Positions 1 to 22,138 of a DNA stretch of 63,563 nucleotides are shown piece after piece (position 1 is the first letter of the stretch; each line of letters begins with the position of its first letter). Below the pieces are notes generated by a model. It saw nothing but the letters and a program-made list of their open reading frames with translations. It ran no database searches and was not told the DNA's origin. Position numbers and translations under genes: made by a program. The stretch comes from an uncultured bacterium (lineage in GTDB: Bacteria > Actinomycetota > Actinomycetes > S36-B12 > CAIKAW01): the NCBI GenBank assembly GCA_903825575.1, contig CAIKAW010000010.1:1-63563 (forward strand). The letters are read 5' to 3'.

Positions 1-330
1 AACGAACGCGTAGACCACGAGCACGGTTGCAATGAACACGAACATTTCCGCTAGGCCGAACAACTTGAGTTGGTCGAACGCGATAGCCCACGGGTAGAGG
101 AAGACGATTTCAATGTCGAACACGATGAACAGCATTGCGGTCAGGTAGTACTTGACCGGGAATCGGCCACCACCAACAGGTTGGGGCGTCGGCTCAATTC
201 CACATTCGTAGGCTTCGAGTTTGGCCCGGTTGTACCGCTTCGGACCGGTGATGCTCGCAATGCCGACTGACATTGCAGCGAATCCGAAGGCAAGTATGCC
301 GAGTACGAGGATCGGCCAGTAGACGTTCAC
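1..330 (-). CDS. nuoA: NADH-quinone oxidoreductase subunit A (NuoA), 3' truncated by the window edge
   Basis: Membrane subunit of respiratory complex I, which passes electrons from NADH to menaquinone and pumps protons. Reading from a GTG at 330 there are 110 codons without a stop, running off the left edge. The translation has a first membrane helix (about residues 4-24), the conserved loop with KRYNRAKLEAYECGIEP and FPVKYY, then helices around FIVFDIEIVFLYPWA. A strong GGAGGAG ribosome site lies 10 nt before the GTG. It is the first nuo gene of an operon running leftwards and lies 88 bp downstream of menJ, so it may share the menJ promoter and its Rex-like operator. Identification is secure; the C-terminus is not visible. 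Confidence 0.93.
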   Translation of the reverse strand, partial: MNVYWPILVLGILAFGFAAMSVGIASITGPKRYNRAKLEAYECGIEPTPQPVGGGRFPVKYYLTAMLFIVFDIEIVFLYPWAIAFDQLKLFGLAEMFVFIATVLVVYAFV

Positions 331-418
331 CGCCGCCTGTCTCCTCCTTGGGAGGCCGGCGAGGTTGCCGGACGTGAACATCCTAGGGCGGTCCGATTCC
401 GGACTTGATTCAGGTGGG

Positions 419-1684
419 TCATGCGGCCGGGGTGATCTTGCTCAGAGCATTTATGACGCGATCGTTGACATCGCCATCGCTCGGATCTGTGAGGTTTGCC
501 AACAGTTTTAGGGTGAAACGCATCAGGCGTTCGCGCTTAAGTCCGTGACGGGTAGCCATCCGCATGACCTCCGGGTGCCCGATCAGGTCGACGAACCAAC
601 GTCCCAAGGTGTAGTACCCGCCATAGGTGCTCTTCAGTGCCGCCGGATATCCCTGCAGGGCGCGCTCAAGGGCCTCGGCCGAGCCAGCCGCGTGAGCATT
701 CGCGATGATTTCCGCGGCCAGCGAGCCAGACTCCATGGCGTAGGAGATTCCCTCGCCATTAAACGGATTGACCATCCCGCCAGCATCGCCGACGAGAAGT
801 AGTCCGCGCTCATAGTGTGGTTGGCGGTTGAAGCCCATCGGCAGCGCCGCTCCGCGCACTTCCTGGGTTCGGTTTTCCTCCCGGAAGCCCCACTCCTCGG
901 GTGTCTGGTCCAGCCATTTGCTGAGCAGGTCCTTGTAGTCGACCTTGCCGAAGGCGTCGGAGGTGTTAAGGATTCCCAGCCCGACGTTGCAGGTGCCATC
1001 GCCCATGCCGAAGATCCAGCCGTAGCCAGGCAGCAACGCTGTGCCGTCCCACAATTCGAGCCACGACTCGAGCCAGTCGTCCTTGTCGCGAGGTGATTTG
1101 TAGTACGTACGTACGGCCACGCCCATCGGTCGGTCGTCACGTTTCTCGCGGCCTACCGAGAGCGCGAGCCGACTGGAGTTGCCGTCGGCCGCAATGACGA
1201 TCGGTGCGCGTACTTCGGACGGTCCACCGTCGCGTGCCCGAGTAGTTACACCAATTACTCGCCCAGTGCGATCGTCGAGAATCGCTCCGGTTACTGGGGT
1301 TTGCTCGAAAAGTCGAGCGCCAGCTGCCTCCGCAGTCCGGGCTAGAAGTTCATCAAAATCCGCTCGCGGACGGACTAATCCGTAGTTTGGAAATGAGGCT
1401 AGGTCGGGCCAGGGAATCTCCAACCGATTCCCGCCGCCGACAATGCGCAGGCCGCGATTATGCAGCCAGCCCGCCGATTCACTGGTGTCGATCCCCAGGT
1501 TGAGCAACTGTTTTACAGCGCGAGGGGTCAGTCCGTCGCCACAGACCTTTTCGCGCGGAAACGTGGTCTTTTCCAATAGCACAACGTCAAGTCCGGCGTT
1601 CGCCAGATGGGCGGCGGCCGTAGCTCCGCCTGGCCCGGCGCCGACGATGACCACATCGGCACTCAGCGAGGTTTGGCTTTCCAT
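419..1684 (-). CDS. menJ: Geranylgeranyl reductase-family FAD protein, probable menaquinone reductase MenJ
   Basis: FAD-dependent oxidoreductase of 421 residues. Members of this family next to menG in actinobacteria saturate one isoprene unit of the menaquinone side chain (MenJ), though geranylgeranyl-lipid reductases look alike. Visible motifs are the N-terminal dinucleotide fold GAGPGG (residues 15-20), the family block EKTTFPREKVCGDGLTPRAV, and the second FAD motif LLVGDAGGMVNPFNGEGI near residue 294. I chose the ATG at 1684, with AAGGA just upstream, over an upstream TTG at 1711 that would lie inside a hairpin-forming operator. It follows menG by 61 bp and precedes nuoA. Function is inferred from family and context. 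Confidence 0.82.
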   Translation of the reverse strand: MESQTSLSADVVIVGAGPGGATAAAHLANAGLDVVLLEKTTFPREKVCGDGLTPRAVKQLLNLGIDTSESAGWLHNRGLRIVGGGNRLEIPWPDLASFPNYGLVRPRADFDELLARTAEAAGARLFEQTPVTGAILDDRTGRVIGVTTRARDGGPSEVRAPIVIAADGNSSRLALSVGREKRDDRPMGVAVRTYYKSPRDKDDWLESWLELWDGTALLPGYGWIFGMGDGTCNVGLGILNTSDAFGKVDYKDLLSKWLDQTPEEWGFREENRTQEVRGAALPMGFNRQPHYERGLLLVGDAGGMVNPFNGEGISYAMESGSLAAEIIANAHAAGSAEALERALQGYPAALKSTYGGYYTLGRWFVDLIGHPEVMRMATRHGLKRERLMRFTLKLLANLTDPSDGDVNDRVINALSKITPAA

Positions 1685-1714
1685 TACGTCCTTTGCTCCT
1701 GGCAGCACCAACGC

Positions 1715-1732
1715 TCGTGAATGGCTTCACGA
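1715..1732. promoter_or_regulatory. Candidate Rex operator upstream of menJ-nuoA
   Basis: TCGTGAATGGCTTCACGA is the core of a longer perfect inverted repeat (1712-1735) with 10-bp arms CGCTCGTGAA/TTCACGAGCG and a 4-nt centre TGGC. The known Rex operator is TTGTGAA-N4-TTCACAA; this site matches 12 of its 14 fixed positions, with the GTGAA-N4-TTCAC core intact. On the minus strand it starts about 10 nt downstream of a TAGGAT -10 element (1743-1748), so bound Rex would cover the transcription start of menJ and perhaps nuoA. A rex gene is in the window at 21363-22046. An RNA hairpin role is possible, but no T-run follows, so an intrinsic terminator is unlikely. Confidence 0.7.
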
Positions 1733-1742
1733 GCGCCCAGTA

Positions 1743-1748
1743 ATCCTA
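1743..1748 (-). promoter_or_regulatory. Candidate -10 element for menJ
   Basis: TAGGAT on the minus strand fits the actinobacterial TANNNT -10 consensus and overlaps the stop codon of menG. It lies 58 nt upstream of the menJ ATG with the Rex-like palindrome between. No convincing -35 hexamer was seen. Confidence 0.4.
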
Positions 1749-2447
1749 GCCTCGGTCCCCGGCAACGGCTCGGTGGAGGGCTACGATCCCGCCGGTTAGG
1801 TTGCGCCACTGGACCTGAGCCCAACCTGCGGCACCCACCCGGTCAGCAAGTGCGCCTTGGTCGGGCCAGGCGCGGATCGACTCGGCCAAGTAGACATATG
1901 CCTCAGGGTTACTCGCAACTCGCCGGGCAACTTCGGGCAACGCCCGCATGAGGTACTCGACATAAACCTTGCGAAACGCCGCGTTGGTTGGGCTCGAGAA
2001 CTCGCAAACAACCAGTCTCCCGCCGGGCCGAGTAACCCGGCGCAGTTCGCGCAGTGCCTGGTCAACGTCGGCCACATTGCGCAGTCCGAATGAGATCGTT
2101 ACTGCGTCAAAGACCTCATCCGCGAACGGCAACGCCAACGCATCCCCGGCCGTGAATGGTAGATAGGGAACTCGGTTCTTGCCGACGGCCAGCATGCCCA
2201 GCGAGAAATCGCATGGGACGACGAAAGCCCCGGCCGCCCAGAGCGGCTCGCTGCTGCTGCCGGTGCCCGCGGCCAAGTCAAGGATCCGTTCCCCAGCCAA
2301 GGGCTTAATAGCTGCCCGAACAGCCTTGCGCCAAACTGCGGTCTGCCCCAAGGACAAGACATCGTTGGTTAGGTCGTACTTGGCCGCCACGTCATCAAAC
2401 ATCGCCGCCACATCGGCGGGCGCCTTGTCCAGTTCGGCCCGGGTCAC
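1746..2447 (-). CDS. menG: Demethylmenaquinone methyltransferase MenG/UbiE
   Basis: SAM-dependent methyltransferase (233 residues) catalysing the final C-methylation of demethylmenaquinone. The N-terminus [22 protein letters not shown] is typical of actinobacterial MenG; motif [12 protein letters not shown] lies at residues 55-65 and the [15 protein letters not shown] and [13 protein letters not shown] blocks follow. The start is a GTG at 2447 with GGAGGA seven nt upstream; the frame stays open to 2585, but that extension has no family similarity. Divergent from menF across 73 bp; menJ follows on the same strand. Confidence 0.93.
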
Positions 2448-2454
2448 CGGGACA

Positions 2455-6510: not shown

Positions 6511-7737
6511 ATGAACACTCGTGCGCTGAGCCAGTTGCTTGTGTCACCCGGCCCGACCGGGGTCCAAGCCTTGCTTGCGGCCCTCCCTAGCGCCCTCTCA
6601 GGCGAGGGCGCCGCCATCGCACCCGCTGAGGTGGGAGTCCCCGAACAAGTCAGGACCGGATGGAATACGGCGGTCCGTGCCGATGACCGCAAGGCGCCGC
6701 TTGAATCCGATGCCGCGGCGGTGGTGCTCACGACCAGCGGATCTACCGGCACCCCAATCGGAGTGCTGCTGTCGGCTGCTGCCCTGCGTGCAGCTGCCGA
6801 CTCGGCTCACGATCGCTTAGCTGGGCCTGGGCATTGGCTAGTGGCATTGCCGGTGACCTCGGTAGGCGGACTCATGACGATCGTCCGTGCGCTCGTGTCT
6901 GAAACACGGCCGGTGATTTGGCCGGGAGTAGGTGGCGCCGAAACCTTTACGCCCGAGTCGTTCCTAGCTTCAGCAGAATTGACGCTCGCTCAAGCCGGCA
7001 CGGAACCTGCCTACGTTTCGCTGGTGCCAACGCAGTTGCAGCGCATCGTCAGCAGTGGAGGTCCGGCGCTAGCGGCCTTGGCGCGGTTTAGTGCGGTGCT
7101 GGTGGGGGCCGCAGATTTGCCATCGCAGACCCGGAACCCGGCAGTGGCCGCCGGCGTCAATGTGGTGCGCACCTACGGCATGACTGAAACGTGTGGTGGC
7201 TTTTGCTACGAAGGGCGGCCACTAGGCAACATGGGCCTTGAAATTGTGGAGGAAGATACGCACGGCGTTGGGCGCGTTGTCGTCTCCGGCTCCGCCTTGG
7301 CTTTGGGCTACCGACTCCAACCGGACCTGACCGCAACTCGCTTCACATCAACTGGCTTGTGGACCGAAGACTTAGGTCGGCTAGTCGATGGACGCTTGAC
7401 GATTGTTGGCCGCCTCGACGAAATGGTGAAGGTGGGCGGAGTTTCGGTTGCGTTGCCCGCAGTTGCCGCGGTGCTGCGAGCCCACGTCGGTATTAGCGAC
7501 GCCGTTGCGGTTGCTCGCCCTGATCCGGAATGGGGCGTCCGCGTCGTAGCAGTAGTCGTTACTTCGAACTCTGACGTTGAGGGAGTCGAAGATTTGTTAC
7601 CGCAATTGCAACGCGTTGTAGGCGATCGACTGGGCCGACTAGCGGCACCGGTAGCAGTGCGCGTAGTACCAGAGATTCCGTTGCTACCTAACGGAAAACC
7701 AGACCGAGTCGCCTTGGCTGCTCTGGTCGAACGATGA
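6511..7737 (+). CDS. menE: o-Succinylbenzoate-CoA ligase MenE
   Basis: Acyl-CoA synthetase of the ANL superfamily (408 residues, the compact actinobacterial form) activating o-succinylbenzoate with ATP and CoA. Motifs: AMP/phosphate loop TTSGSTGTPIGVLLS, the YGMTETCGG block, LWTEDLGRLVDGRLTIVGRLDEMVKVGG and the C-terminal LLPNGKPDRVAL containing the adenylation lysine. The ATG at 6511 has no Shine-Dalgarno. The 3' end overlaps menA by 4 bp (ATGA). No menB (naphthoate synthase) is in this window. Confidence 0.93.
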   Translation: MNTRALSQLLVSPGPTGVQALLAALPSALSGEGAAIAPAEVGVPEQVRTGWNTAVRADDRKAPLESDAAAVVLTTSGSTGTPIGVLLSAAALRAAADSAHDRLAGPGHWLVALPVTSVGGLMTIVRALVSETRPVIWPGVGGAETFTPESFLASAELTLAQAGTEPAYVSLVPTQLQRIVSSGGPALAALARFSAVLVGAADLPSQTRNPAVAAGVNVVRTYGMTETCGGFCYEGRPLGNMGLEIVEEDTHGVGRVVVSGSALALGYRLQPDLTATRFTSTGLWTEDLGRLVDGRLTIVGRLDEMVKVGGVSVALPAVAAVLRAHVGISDAVAVARPDPEWGVRVVAVVVTSNSDVEGVEDLLPQLQRVVGDRLGRLAAPVAVRVVPEIPLLPNGKPDRVALAALVER

Positions 7738-9467
7738 CCGCACTGGGCCTTTGGCTCGCCGGCGCTCGACCAAGGACGCTTCCTGCCGCCGTCGCACCGG
7801 TAGCAGTGGGCACAGGCGTTGCTGCATACGAAAGCTCAATGCTTGTCGGTCGTGCCGGACTTGCGCTGGTTGTTGCTCTCTCATTGCAGGTAGGCGTCAA
7901 CTACGCCAACGACTACAGCGACGGGATCCGCGGCACCGACAATGAGCGGGTCGGACCGATTCGACTTGTAGGCCAGCAGTTGGCCAGCCCGCGCGCAGTC
8001 AAGTCGGCGGCGCTGCTCTCGTTTGCTGTCGCGGCAGTGGCGGGATTGGCGCTTGTAGTTCTCACTGGGGCTTGGTGGCTCCTTGCGGTTGGCGCTGCTT
8101 GCATCGCCGCCGCCTGGTTATACACCGGAGGGTCGCGCCCGTACGGCTATGCCGGATTCGGCGAAGTCTTCGTGTTCGTGTTTTTCGGATTGGTCGCGAG
8201 TGCCGGCACGACGTTCGTGCAGACCGGAACCGCACCTCGCATGTCGTGGCTGGCGGCGACCGCGGTGGGTTTGCCAATCGTTGCGATTCTTGTCGCCAAC
8301 AACTTGCGCGACATTCCAGGCGACACCGAATCGGGCAAGAAGACGCTGGCTGTTCGTCTGGGCGATCACCGCACTCGCATCCTTTACGAAGTTCTCATTG
8401 CCCTCACGTGCCTGCTAACGCTTCTGATTGCCGGGCTCGGTCCGCGTAAGGCCGTCGTTGCTTTGCTTGCATTGGTGGGACTGGTGCCCGCGCTACGAAC
8501 CTTGCGCTCCGGGGCGACCGGCCGGGACCTGATTCCGGTGCTGGCTGGAACCGGTCGATTCGTGCTGGTGTTTGGTCTGCTCTTAGGGCTGGGGCTCAGT
8601 TGGGGCACTTGGATTGCCGGGCCGCGACCGCGACCGAGCAGTTCCGGTATCCTTGGTATCTCGATCGTGGCGCGGGTAAACACCTTGAGCGAACAAGGCG
8701 GAACGTGCGGGGGTACCCCAATGCCGGTGAGGCTTCCGCGGCTGACCCGGCCGCTGCACATTGATTCCATCATCAGTTGCCCGTCGGGCCTTGAGACCGG
8801 CGCCAGCGACATCCTGATTCGTCGGAACGCAAGAACCACCAAGTTGTTGGACGGTTTCAGCGCCGCTCTGGCGGTTGCTGATGCACCACGAACTGCAGGC
8901 GCCTGCTTGGCGATGCTCCCAAACGTCTGGCCATTTGTGGCACTTATCCAAGGGCGGCAGTTCCGCCTAGCCATGCCGTTGAATGGCTGCGGCGGGCCGC
9001 AAACGAGTGCGACTGCTGCTTTTGCTGCGGTATTTCAACTCGCGCACCAAGAGCCCACACCCACCAATGGCGTGAGCGCAGTCAATTCGGCTAGACCTTG
9101 TGGAGTTGCCGATGTGACCGCGATGGTCGCCACTGACCTGACTGTTCGCGTAGTCAACACATCCGCGACAGCGTGTTCGATCAGCGGGAGTCCTGCTGTG
9201 GGATTAAAAGTGGCCAAGACCGAACGCGACATCCCCGGGTGGACCACCTATGTGCTGCAACCCGGACAGGGCATCGTCCAGCAGAACTACGTCAGGCCCG
9301 ACCAAACAGCCTGCACTCAACCGATCCCCACTGGTACGGGCGGCACGCCCACTTGGACAGTCAACGTCGGTGGCGTCACCTTGCATCCAACCGGATCTGC
9401 CCAACAAATCCGTCAGGTCGAAGGTTGTGCCGTTGTTGTCGCACAGGCAAGTAGTTCTTGGCGATGA
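7734..9467 (+). CDS. menA: MenA prenyltransferase fused to a Cys-containing, DUF4232-like C-terminal region
   Basis: The first ~292 residues are 1,4-dihydroxy-2-naphthoate polyprenyltransferase: a UbiA-family membrane protein with the two Asp motifs NYANDYSDGIRGTD and NNLRDIPGDTESGKKTLAVRLG and about nine hydrophobic helices. The frame then continues with no stop for about 285 more residues (577 in all; the family is normally ~290). After a Pro/Ser/Gly-rich linker there are a region with paired cysteines (SIISCPSG, AGACLAML, NGCGGP) and a DUF4232-like block (RPCGVAD, NTSATACSISGSPAVGLK, EGCAVVV). The extension has no signal peptide; a nine-helix MenA with its N-terminus inside would put it outside the membrane. 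Internal starts at GTG 8667 or ATG 8721 could make it a separate protein. MenA is certain, the extension's role unknown. Confidence 0.88.
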   Translation: MTALGLWLAGARPRTLPAAVAPVAVGTGVAAYESSMLVGRAGLALVVALSLQVGVNYANDYSDGIRGTDNERVGPIRLVGQQLASPRAVKSAALLSFAVAAVAGLALVVLTGAWWLLAVGAACIAAAWLYTGGSRPYGYAGFGEVFVFVFFGLVASAGTTFVQTGTAPRMSWLAATAVGLPIVAILVANNLRDIPGDTESGKKTLAVRLGDHRTRILYEVLIALTCLLTLLIAGLGPRKAVVALLALVGLVPALRTLRSGATGRDLIPVLAGTGRFVLVFGLLLGLGLSWGTWIAGPRPRPSSSGILGISIVARVNTLSEQGGTCGGTPMPVRLPRLTRPLHIDSIISCPSGLETGASDILIRRNARTTKLLDGFSAALAVADAPRTAGACLAMLPNVWPFVALIQGRQFRLAMPLNGCGGPQTSATAAFAAVFQLAHQEPTPTNGVSAVNSARPCGVADVTAMVATDLTVRVVNTSATACSISGSPAVGLKVAKTERDIPGWTTYVLQPGQGIVQQNYVRPDQTACTQPIPTGTGGTPTWTVNVGGVTLHPTGSAQQIRQVEGCAVVVAQASSSWR

Positions 9468-19130: not shown

Positions 19131-20053
19131 GGCACTCGCTCTCCCAATAATTCGGCGGCACCGGACGCGACGAGTTCGGCGGCTAGGCGTGCGCCCAGAA
19201 CCTCCGGCTCGTCGGCAGGACCGACGATGGACTTGCGGACAACTGCACCAACGCCAAGTACGGCGGCATGCAGGTTCAGTTCGGGTCGCTCAGACCCAAA
19301 TCCATGTGTGCTCGCGTACGCGCCAACCGGCGCGCTGCAGCCGGCCTCCAGCGTTGCAAGCACCGAACGTTCCGCCAAGACGGCGGCACGAGTCTCGGCG
19401 TCATCAAGTTGAGCCAACGCGGCCAGCAACTCGAGATCGGTTTCGTCCGACCGGCATTCAACGGCAAGTGCGCCCTGGCCTGGTGCTGGAAGAAAGTCGG
19501 TAGGTGAAAGCAACTGCGTAGCTGAATCCGCCCGTCCAAGACGCGCAAGTCCAGCCTGCGCAAGCACAACTGCATCCAGGTCGCCAGATGTAACGCGGCC
19601 TAAGCGAGTGTCGACGTTGCCGCGCAATTCGACGACATTCAGATCCGCCCTCGCGTTCAGCAACAGTGCCCGACGTCGCGGCGAGCCCGTACCCACGCTG
19701 GCACCAGTCGGAAGATCTGCAAGCTTGAGCCGATCCCGAGCGCACAATGCGTCACGCGGATCAGCCCGGCGCGGAATCGCGGCCAGCCGCAGGCTCGGAT
19801 CTGGCGCAGTTGGCAGATCCTTGAGCGAATGAACGGCCAGTTGCGCTTGGCCAGCGTTCAACGCAGCCCTGACTGCTCCAACGAAGACACCCGTGCCACC
19901 AATTACTTCGAGTGGGGCAGAGTTCACATCGCCATGGGTTGTGATCGGAAGTAACTCAACCGGGCGCCCCATAATGCTGCTGAGCTCTGTCGCTAGTGCG
20001 CCCGCTTGAGCAAGTGCTAGCGCACTTCCGCGCGTGGCGATGAATACGGTCAT
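19127..20053 (-). CDS. hemC: Hydroxymethylbilane synthase HemC
   Basis: Porphobilinogen deaminase (308 residues) polymerising four porphobilinogens. Typical blocks: FIATRGSALALAQ, AVHSLKDLPT, GTGSPRRRALL, ELRGNVDTRL, and LEAGCSAPVGAYA, whose Cys239 carries the dipyrromethane cofactor. ATG at 20053 overlaps the hemA stop by 4 bp. Confidence 0.96.
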   Translation of the reverse strand: MTVFIATRGSALALAQAGALATELSSIMGRPVELLPITTHGDVNSAPLEVIGGTGVFVGAVRAALNAGQAQLAVHSLKDLPTAPDPSLRLAAIPRRADPRDALCARDRLKLADLPTGASVGTGSPRRRALLLNARADLNVVELRGNVDTRLGRVTSGDLDAVVLAQAGLARLGRADSATQLLSPTDFLPAPGQGALAVECRSDETDLELLAALAQLDDAETRAAVLAERSVLATLEAGCSAPVGAYASTHGFGSERPELNLHAAVLGVGAVVRKSIVGPADEPEVLGARLAAELVASGAAELLGERVP

Positions 20054-21366
20054 GACAGCATCGGCGGAAGGTCGTCGGCTACGACCGCTGGGCGGGTTAG
20101 GGCTGCAATGGCATTGGGGTCAAGATCGAACAGGGCCTGCAGCGCCTCGGCATAGCGGTGCCCACCAGATTGCGTGGCAAATTCCTTCATGCGCACTGTG
20201 GGGGTGTGCAGCAAGGTCGACACAAGGCGACGCATCGCCCGTTCAATTTCGTCTGTAGGAACCGAATCCGCGTGGTGCGAACGAAGTTTGTCCATCTCAG
20301 CGGACACGACCTCGTTCGCCCGCGCCCGTAGTGAGACAACGATGGGGTCGACCCGACTCGCTTCGCGTGTTCCGACGTACGCTGCGACCTCTTCAACAAT
20401 GATCACGCGAGCAGCAGCGATCTGGGCTTCTGACACCGCGGCATCTGGACGAGCGGCGATCGCAGACATGTCGATCCGCACTACGCCTGGGAGGTCAGCT
20501 AGCTCCGGATCAGTGTCGTGAGGAACGGCAAGATCGATGATGACTAGAGGCCTCGAGCCACGCTGCGGCAACGCCTTTGCAATCTCAGCCGTGCCGATGA
20601 CAACGCCCATTGCACCGGTACCGCTGATGATCAGGTCGGCAGACGCGTATTCCTCAGCGATGTGCTCCAACGACAAGGCACGACCGCCGGTAAGTGCGGC
20701 GAGGCGCTCGGCGTTTGCATGGGTCCGGTTTGCAATCACCAGGTGCCCGATTCCGGCCGCCTGCAAAGTCGTTGCGGCCAAACTCGAAATGGCACCGGCG
20801 CCGACAACCAACGCGTGCCGTCCGGAAAGGCCGCCAAGCGCTTCGTCAGCCAAGCCAAGGGCTACCGAAACAATAGATGCGCCGGCACGATCGATTCCGG
20901 TATCGGTATGCACCCGCTTCCCGACCCGAAGTGCCGCCTGGCCGAGGCCATTGAGCGTGCGACCAACCGTGGCCGCCTCCTGCGATCGACGCAACCCAGA
21001 ACGCACCTGCCCGAGGATCTGCTGCTCGCCTACGACCATCGAATCAAGACCTGACGCGACATCGAAGAGATGCTCGACCGCGCGGTCTTCGTACAGCGCA
21101 TACAAGTGCGGCGTCAGTTCCTCGCGCGAGACACCCGCATGCTTAGCCAAGGCCGCGGTAACGGAATCGACCGCACCATGGAACCGCGCGACGTCTGCAT
21201 ACACCTCAACCCGGTTGCATGTCGTAACGAGGAGCACCTCGGCAACGTGTTCGGAATCGAATACTTCGTGCAGCAATGCCTGCGCATCTGCTTCGGAAAG
21301 TGCCGTGCGATCAAGCAGATCCATCGGCGCACTGCGGTGACTCGCACCAACAACGAGGAGCGTCAT
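20050..21366 (-). CDS. hemA: Glutamyl-tRNA reductase HemA
   Basis: NADPH-dependent enzyme (438 residues) reducing glutamyl-tRNA to glutamate-1-semialdehyde, the entry point of C5 heme synthesis. Catalytic Cys50 lies in TTCNRVEVY; GASHRSAP near the N-terminus, GLRRSQEAATVG and HALVVGAGAISSLAA (NADPH-binding) follow. ATG at 21366 overlaps the rex stop by 4 bp, so expression follows rex. Confidence 0.95.
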   Translation of the reverse strand: MTLLVVGASHRSAPMDLLDRTALSEADAQALLHEVFDSEHVAEVLLVTTCNRVEVYADVARFHGAVDSVTAALAKHAGVSREELTPHLYALYEDRAVEHLFDVASGLDSMVVGEQQILGQVRSGLRRSQEAATVGRTLNGLGQAALRVGKRVHTDTGIDRAGASIVSVALGLADEALGGLSGRHALVVGAGAISSLAATTLQAAGIGHLVIANRTHANAERLAALTGGRALSLEHIAEEYASADLIISGTGAMGVVIGTAEIAKALPQRGSRPLVIIDLAVPHDTDPELADLPGVVRIDMSAIAARPDAAVSEAQIAAARVIIVEEVAAYVGTREASRVDPIVVSLRARANEVVSAEMDKLRSHHADSVPTDEIERAMRRLVSTLLHTPTVRMKEFATQSGGHRYAEALQALFDLDPNAIAALTRPAVVADDLPPMLS

Positions 21367-22046
21367 GCCTGCACCGCCGCGACCTTGCGCTGTTCGTGGA
21401 AGGCAAGGATTTGCAACTCAAGTCCGAGGTCGACCTGACGCAATTCGGTGCCTTCAGGCACGGTGAGAATCGTGGGAGCGAAATTCAAGATTGCGGTGAT
21501 CCCGGCCGCAACAAGTCGATCGCAGACGCCTTGGGCCGCTGTGGCTGGGGTCGCGATCACTCCGATCGCTGCGCCGGTGGCGGCGATGGTGGATTCGAGT
21601 TCCGAGAGCGGCTGAACTGTTCGAGGCGGCTGCAACGCGGTCACAGTCGTACCAATCAAGTCGGGGTCAACGTCGAACATGCCCACGATCTGGAACCCTC
21701 GGGAAGCGAATCCGCCGTAGTGGACTAGGGCGTGCCCTAGGTGCCCTACCCCAACGACGACGACCGGCCACTCGTGGGTTAATCCCAGTTCGCGCGAGAT
21801 CTGGAAGCGCAGGTAACCCACGTCATAACCCACACCTCGAGTGCCGTAAGTGCCCAGATGTGAAAGATCCTTGCGCAGTTTCGCGCTCGTGACACCGGCC
21901 GTAAGCGCCAATTCTTCGCTGCTTACCGTTATGACTCCCCGCTCGAGGAAGACCCCGAGCACCCGCAGGTAGACCGGCAGTCGCGCCACGGTCGCATCGG
22001 GTATGGCAGCGCCGGCACGAGCGCGGACTCCGCGGGCGAGCGTCAC
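21363..22046 (-). CDS. rex: Redox-sensing transcriptional repressor Rex
   Basis: NADH/NAD+-sensing repressor (227 residues). The N-terminal winged helix (ARLPVYLRVLGVFLERGV, SSEELALTAGVTSAKLRKDLSHLG) is followed by a Rossmann domain with GVGHLG at 99-104. Rex leaves its operators when NADH is high. GTG start at 22046 with GGAGGA five nt upstream. It heads the rex-hemA-hemC-hemD unit, the order known in Streptomyces, where Rex also represses nuo and cyd operons. A Rex-type operator is present upstream of menJ-nuoA at 1715-1732. Confidence 0.95.
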   Translation of the reverse strand: MTLARGVRARAGAAIPDATVARLPVYLRVLGVFLERGVITVSSEELALTAGVTSAKLRKDLSHLGTYGTRGVGYDVGYLRFQISRELGLTHEWPVVVVGVGHLGHALVHYGGFASRGFQIVGMFDVDPDLIGTTVTALQPPRTVQPLSELESTIAATGAAIGVIATPATAAQGVCDRLVAAGITAILNFAPTILTVPEGTELRQVDLGLELQILAFHEQRKVAAVQA

Positions 22047-22122
22047 AGTGTTCCTCCGACGGGCAGGGCTAGGGCCGCATCAGGTTCCGGCGTCCCCTGT
22101 TGGTCAGGGTAGGTATCCCGGG

Positions 22123-22138
22123 CACAAAGTCACAAAGT
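22123..22138. repeat. Direct repeat CACAAAGT x2 in the rex promoter region
   Basis: Two head-to-tail copies of CACAAAGT. On the minus strand they read ACTTTGTG twice and contain TTGTGA, followed after 18 nt by TACCCT, a possible -35/-10 pair for rex. TTGTGA also resembles one half of a Rex site, but no second half is present. Confidence 0.4.

Follow-up and report, generated by a model that had tools for sequence, protein, structure and literature searches.

The nearest counterparts are the Rex operators of Streptomyces avermitilis, which precede nuoA1, cydA1, rex-hem, hppA, atpI and wblE (PMC5355995). The hppA operator, TCGTGAATCAATTCACGA, is bound by Rex in vitro, the cydA1 operator was footprinted at positions -3 to +25, and binding to the nuoA operator, TTGTGACCTGCTTCACAT, is likewise established by footprinting (PMC5355995), which bears out the statement in an earlier note on the present DNA that Rex controls nuo in Streptomyces. 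With regard to quinone chemistry, mycobacterial MenJ saturates a single double bond in the menaquinone side chain, and electron transport becomes less efficient when the enzyme is lost (PMC6305584). Excerpts of a study of Actinomyces oris place the menJ-like gene ggr next to ubiE and the nuo locus, as in the DNA analysed here, and describe transposon mutants in nuo and ggr with a common coaggregation defect; they make no reference to Rex or to an operator (PMC5478893).

The window, by which we mean the whole 63,563-nt stretch of contig CAIKAW010000010.1 (positions 1 to 63,563), shares with S. avermitilis the operator core GTGAAN4TTCAC, a complex I target and a rex gene that heads the hem genes. 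The outer bases of the hppA operator (TCGTGAA....TTCACGA) are exactly those of the window, and the location of the operator at the predicted start site in menJ loci resembles that of the cydA1 operator. In the window, however, the operator lies before menJ, one gene upstream of nuoA, whereas in Streptomycetaceae other genes intervene and the operator lies at nuoA; moreover, the operator of rex itself is eroded in the window, unlike that of rex-hem in S. avermitilis. The Staphylococcus aureus operator, TTGTGAAW4TTCACAA, has the same dyad and spacing as the window, but its spacer is confined to A/T whereas actinobacterial menJ sites accept any base, and it controls fermentation and nitrate genes that respond to anaerobiosis by induction, unlike menJ-nuo (PMC2883068). 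Rex control of complex I is known from Streptomyces, and what the predicted operator adds is one more gene, menJ, rather than a new type of system.

The menJ-nuo locus and its Rex-type dyad

The features at the beginning of the window are as follows.

1–330, minus strand: nuoA, NADH-quinone oxidoreductase subunit A (above the NF005922 cut-off), which runs off the window
380–385, minus strand: TAGGAT between menJ and nuoA, taken as the -10 of P2, a predicted second promoter before nuoA that has no Rex operator
419–1684, minus strand: menJ-like gene for a 421-aa FAD protein of the geranylgeranyl reductase family, preceded by P1 and the operator
1712–1735, no strand assigned: predicted Rex operator, a perfect inverted repeat with 10-bp arms and a 4-bp spacer (18-bp core match at 1715–1732)
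1743–1748, minus strand: TAGGAT hexamer, predicted to be the -10 of P1, the promoter of menJ; 10 nt separate its end from the 18-bp operator core, and it shares bases with the stop codon of menG
1746–2453, minus strand: menG/ubiE, demethylmenaquinone methyltransferase (above the NF001241 cut-off), the upstream neighbour

The sequence of positions 1712–1735 is CGCTCGTGAATGGCTTCACGAGCG, or CGCTCGTGAA-TGGC-TTCACGAGCG, in which the two 10-bp arms pair perfectly. Both halves of the GTGAA-N4-TTCAC core and its 4-bp spacing are intact, and each arm departs once from TTGTGAAN4TTCACAA, at its variable second position, which gives two mismatches in all. Read along the minus strand, the menG stop codon (TAG, 1748–1746) lies within the TAGGAT hexamer (1748–1743), followed by the operator core (1732–1715), the menJ ATG at 1684 and the nuoA GTG near 330, so that the site is situated just downstream of a predicted promoter. 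The earlier note had described a 24-bp perfect inverted repeat with a TGGC center and a Rex core, downstream of a TAGGAT -10 between menG and menJ with nuoA next; dyad and positions are as it stated, the -10 being a prediction. No convincing -35 element of the sigma-70 type was recognisable upstream of P1 in the window.

By itself, the dyad lies within chance, because matches to the Rex consensus are about as frequent as expected both in the window (two with at most three mismatches versus 1.2 expected) and in the whole genome (seven places with at most two mismatches versus nine for a reversed-pattern control). Perfect 10-bp spaced inverted repeats number five in the window. Other genomic sites with at most two mismatches lie on contigs C6, C31 and C100 and in tuf, purA and an ORF of 470 aa; the check covered the ones in tuf, purA and the ORF, where the match falls within coding sequence. 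The significance of the dyad resides instead in its position together with its conservation.

The genome-wide matrix scan that the earlier note had suggested was carried out with R1, a sequence-only profile built from 50 menJ sites with the window excluded. Among the 150 of 907 first-look candidates scored in the window's genome, the menJ site was recovered alone, as the sole match at E ≤ 10, with E-values of 0.0012 and 0.0015 for the two strands of the same dyad. Applied to a Streptomyces-type genome, R1 found sites beside the H+-pyrophosphatase and ATP synthase genes, both of which are known Rex targets (PMC5355995). Two sites in the Streptomyces-type genome, TTGTGATACGGTTCACGA and ATGTGAACGCTTTCACGA, are identical to the atpI and wblE operators listed in the same report (PMC5355995).

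The menJ-like protein is the only match of its kind in the window's genome. It scores 279.5 bits against the geranylgeranyl reductase subfamily model TIGR02032 (cut-off 158.8) but 270.6 bits against the MenJ equivalog NF045655, for which the cut-off is 700 bits. The menaquinone-modifying menJ of the earlier note therefore holds as a member of the geranylgeranyl reductase family and falls short as a MenJ equivalog, and the name is valid at the family level only. Given this score, we infer a role in quinone tailoring from the family and from the flanking menG and nuo genes, according to which the enzyme would saturate the menaquinone side chain. Elsewhere in the window, a UbiA-family (menA-like) ORF at 7734–9467 on the plus strand (577 aa) matches UbiA over residues 20–257 only, and the rest of the ORF gave no Pfam match at 0.001.

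Conservation of the predicted operator and its co-occurrence with rex

Loci containing menJ were collected from 80 named contigs, from genomes of the same order and from further genomes of the class, and 151 distinct upstream regions were kept. With menJ and nuoA regarded as adjacent when the gap is below 400 bp, there are 91 distinct adjacent loci, window included. An operator with 0–2 mismatches precedes menJ in 83 of these and one with 3–5 mismatches in none, as compared with a best site of at most two mismatches in about 0.03% of shuffled regions of about 300 bp (about 0.0003 per locus). Across the 83 sites, the GTGAA and TTCAC cores are fixed or nearly so (1.9–2.0 bits), including the invariant or nearly invariant inner bases A7 and T12; the 4-base spacer is free (about 0.1 bit); and the base preceding GTGA is C in 62% of cases, as it is in the window. 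The conservation upstream of menJ that the earlier note wished to see checked is thus present in 83 of 91 loci, and variable arms within conserved surroundings, the pattern that the note held against a Rex operator, are the reverse of what is seen. A TANNNT hexamer is mostly found 6–17 nt upstream of the operator (TAGACT in 47 loci, TACACT in 14, TAGGAT in 3, and others), which would place the operator at the transcription start site. Most loci also carry an asymmetric GCGC flank on the menJ side of the operator (positions 19–22; 1714–1711 on the minus strand of the window).

The proposed trans-acting partner is encoded in the same window, 20 kb away and heading the heme genes, in agreement with the earlier note.

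20050–21366, minus strand: hemA, directly after rex (rex-hem arrangement), from family matches
21363–22046, minus strand: rex, redox-sensing repressor (Pfam PF06971 and PF02629; NF003992 equivalog at 336 bits, cut-off 226)
22118–22135, minus strand: eroded Rex operator before rex, TTGTGACTTTGTGCCCGG, with only the left half retained and five mismatches

The genome encodes a Rex with a conserved DNA-binding domain: the stretch SAKLRKDxSxLGxYGTRGVGYDV is common to the window protein and the Streptomyces-type Rex of the comparison set, which are nearly identical in the DNA-binding stretch and 65% identical overall. With presence of rex defined by a PF06971 search of the genomes behind the loci, the operator occurs in 53 of 54 rex-containing genomes and in neither of two without rex (completeness of 90% or more, menJ and nuoA adjacent; Fisher p 0.002), and in 53 of 57 and none of three, respectively, once loci in which no nuoA is visible are also counted (Fisher p 0.001), although these tests make no correction for relatedness and include only two or three genomes that lack rex. 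The site is therefore kept at the orthologous position and lost with rex, as judged from few rex-less genomes. Four rex-containing genomes with menJ beside nuoA have no operator at menJ (G099, G081, G137 and G135; loci L126, L141, L134 and L165), only one of them reaching 90% completeness. Conversely, rex was not found in three incomplete metagenome-assembled genomes (73–82%) that have the site. All four rex-containing genomes without the operator retain a CTAGGATG box before nuoA.

Position and conservation, taken together, make the dyad with high probability a Rex operator, to which binding is predicted. The site before rex itself presents a different picture: of 20 relatives checked, 17 carry an operator there with 1–3 mismatches, versus five mismatches in the window. 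The corresponding site of G003, from the same order, resembles the eroded one, and because of this shared erosion, the window genome may have lost Rex autoregulation while keeping the menJ-nuo site. In the window and in locus L205, the left half of the pre-rex operator is followed by a repeated TTTGTG, and the full sites of relatives often read TTGTGCAN4TTCACAA, with C at position 6.

Complex I as the apparent constant target and a predicted second promoter

Loci of the Streptomycetaceae type (n = 43) have genes between menJ and nuoA, which are 0.56–4.4 kb apart. At menJ the operator is absent from all 43, and each carries one with two mismatches within 300 bp before nuoA; some of these operators are the exact sequence TTGTGACCTGCTTCACAT that is footprinted in S. 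avermitilis. A Nocardiopsis locus (L044) carries operators at both genes. On the basis of the Streptomycetaceae arrangement, the constant target appears to be complex I and not menJ, and menJ would be a passenger or a co-target in loci that begin with it. The position of the operator shifts with gene order, and its location one gene earlier in most of the remaining actinobacteria whose menJ adjoins nuoA suggests that a probable menaquinone-modifying enzyme is thereby placed under the same NADH signal.

In the window, menJ and nuoA are separated by a 97-nt gap that has no recognisable terminator. The gap contains the box CTAGGAT (385–380), which is present in the gap in 37 of 91 loci as compared with 0.28 expected and is not accompanied by an operator; it is likely the -10 element of a Rex-free nuo promoter, the predicted P2. 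Because this operator-free box precedes nuoA, control of complex I from the menJ site is probably partial. A similar TAGGATG is found upstream of the nuoA operator in Streptomycetaceae, where the published start site lies downstream of the operator (PMC5355995), and these boxes are consequently putative promoters only. The earlier note had the operator link Rex to menJ and complex I: a predicted operator does precede menJ-nuo, but complex I is the constant partner (43/43) and its control from this site is likely incomplete.

Mechanism and alternative readings

In the reading that we favour, at a probability of about 0.8, a Rex operator overlies the P1 start and represses menJ together with read-through into nuo, and P2 supplies a Rex-free basal level. 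The operator overlaps the predicted start of P1 (-10 TAGGAT, 1748–1743), such that at low NADH, NAD+-bound Rex dimers would occupy it and prevent transcripts from being initiated or from passing early elongation, with less menJ mRNA and less read-through into nuoA-N as the outcome. A rise in NADH, as at low oxygen or with a reduced quinone pool, would cause Rex to depart and allow expression of menJ and nuo, and the operator-free P2 (380–385) would probably provide basal, Rex-independent complex I. We infer from the locus and its relatives that Rex binds the site and represses, that menJ and nuo share one transcript and that P1 and P2 are both active; co-control of menJ by Rex is likely, as is a partial control of complex I from the menJ site.

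The motif GTGA-N6-TCAC of the Crp/FNR family is contained, at the same spacing, in GTGAA-N4-TTCAC, and the window's genome has a gene for a Crp-type helix-turn-helix protein. An operator of that family is nonetheless very unlikely. The Crp consensus has T before GTGA and does not include the inner A/T pair, whereas most sites, the window among them, have C in the former position, and the near-invariance of A7 and T12 over 83 sites is Rex-like; the pattern TGTGA-N6-TCACA is therefore not what is conserved. Rex-less genomes keep a Crp homologue yet lack the site, and the same motif is footprinted by Rex at Streptomyces nuoA. Nor is the dyad at all likely to act as RNA, whether by terminating menG transcripts or as a stem between the cistrons of a menG-menJ transcript, a highly improbable reading even though the minus strand of the window folds between the two genes into a stem of 11–12 pairs with a tetraloop. 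No T-run follows this stem in the window, shuffled sequences fold almost as stably (z -1.28), and no Rfam family exceeds threshold. Among 50 aligned relatives, four core pairs never vary, pairing is barely above that of shuffles, without support from covariation, and operator pair 2–17 is unpaired in 30 (mostly C with A); invariant cores combined with this unpaired position indicate constraint on sequence and not on pairing.

A functionless palindrome would be consistent with the chance matches expected in one genome at this mismatch level, but its presence at the corresponding place in 83 of 91 loci leaves that explanation a negligible probability. Unlikely, too, is an operator that serves menJ alone, with nuo transcribed from P2 independently of Rex. 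The operator-free CTAGGAT before nuoA in 37 of 91 loci and the 97-nt gap of the window would accommodate such an arrangement; against it, where genes intervene the operator is at nuoA and not at menJ (43/43), as selection on complex I control predicts, and no terminator is recognisable in the menJ-nuoA gap of the window.

The comparisons make an effect of redox state on menaquinone saturation testable. We suggest, tentatively and with some doubt, that across much of the actinobacteria the NADH/NAD+ ratio, acting via Rex, could set menaquinone saturation jointly with the level of complex I, so that one signal would tune quinone chemistry and its electron donor, and that streamlined genomes such as that of the window may retain menJ-nuo as their sole strong Rex target. 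A literature search found no report of Rex at menJ; it did not take in what is reportedly the main earlier computational survey of Rex (J. Bacteriol. 2012), where the link may already have been predicted. A possible further target is indicated by a strong R1 match (E 0.003) at G120:C2:296581 (L208), near an ORF resembling D-3-phosphoglycerate dehydrogenase.
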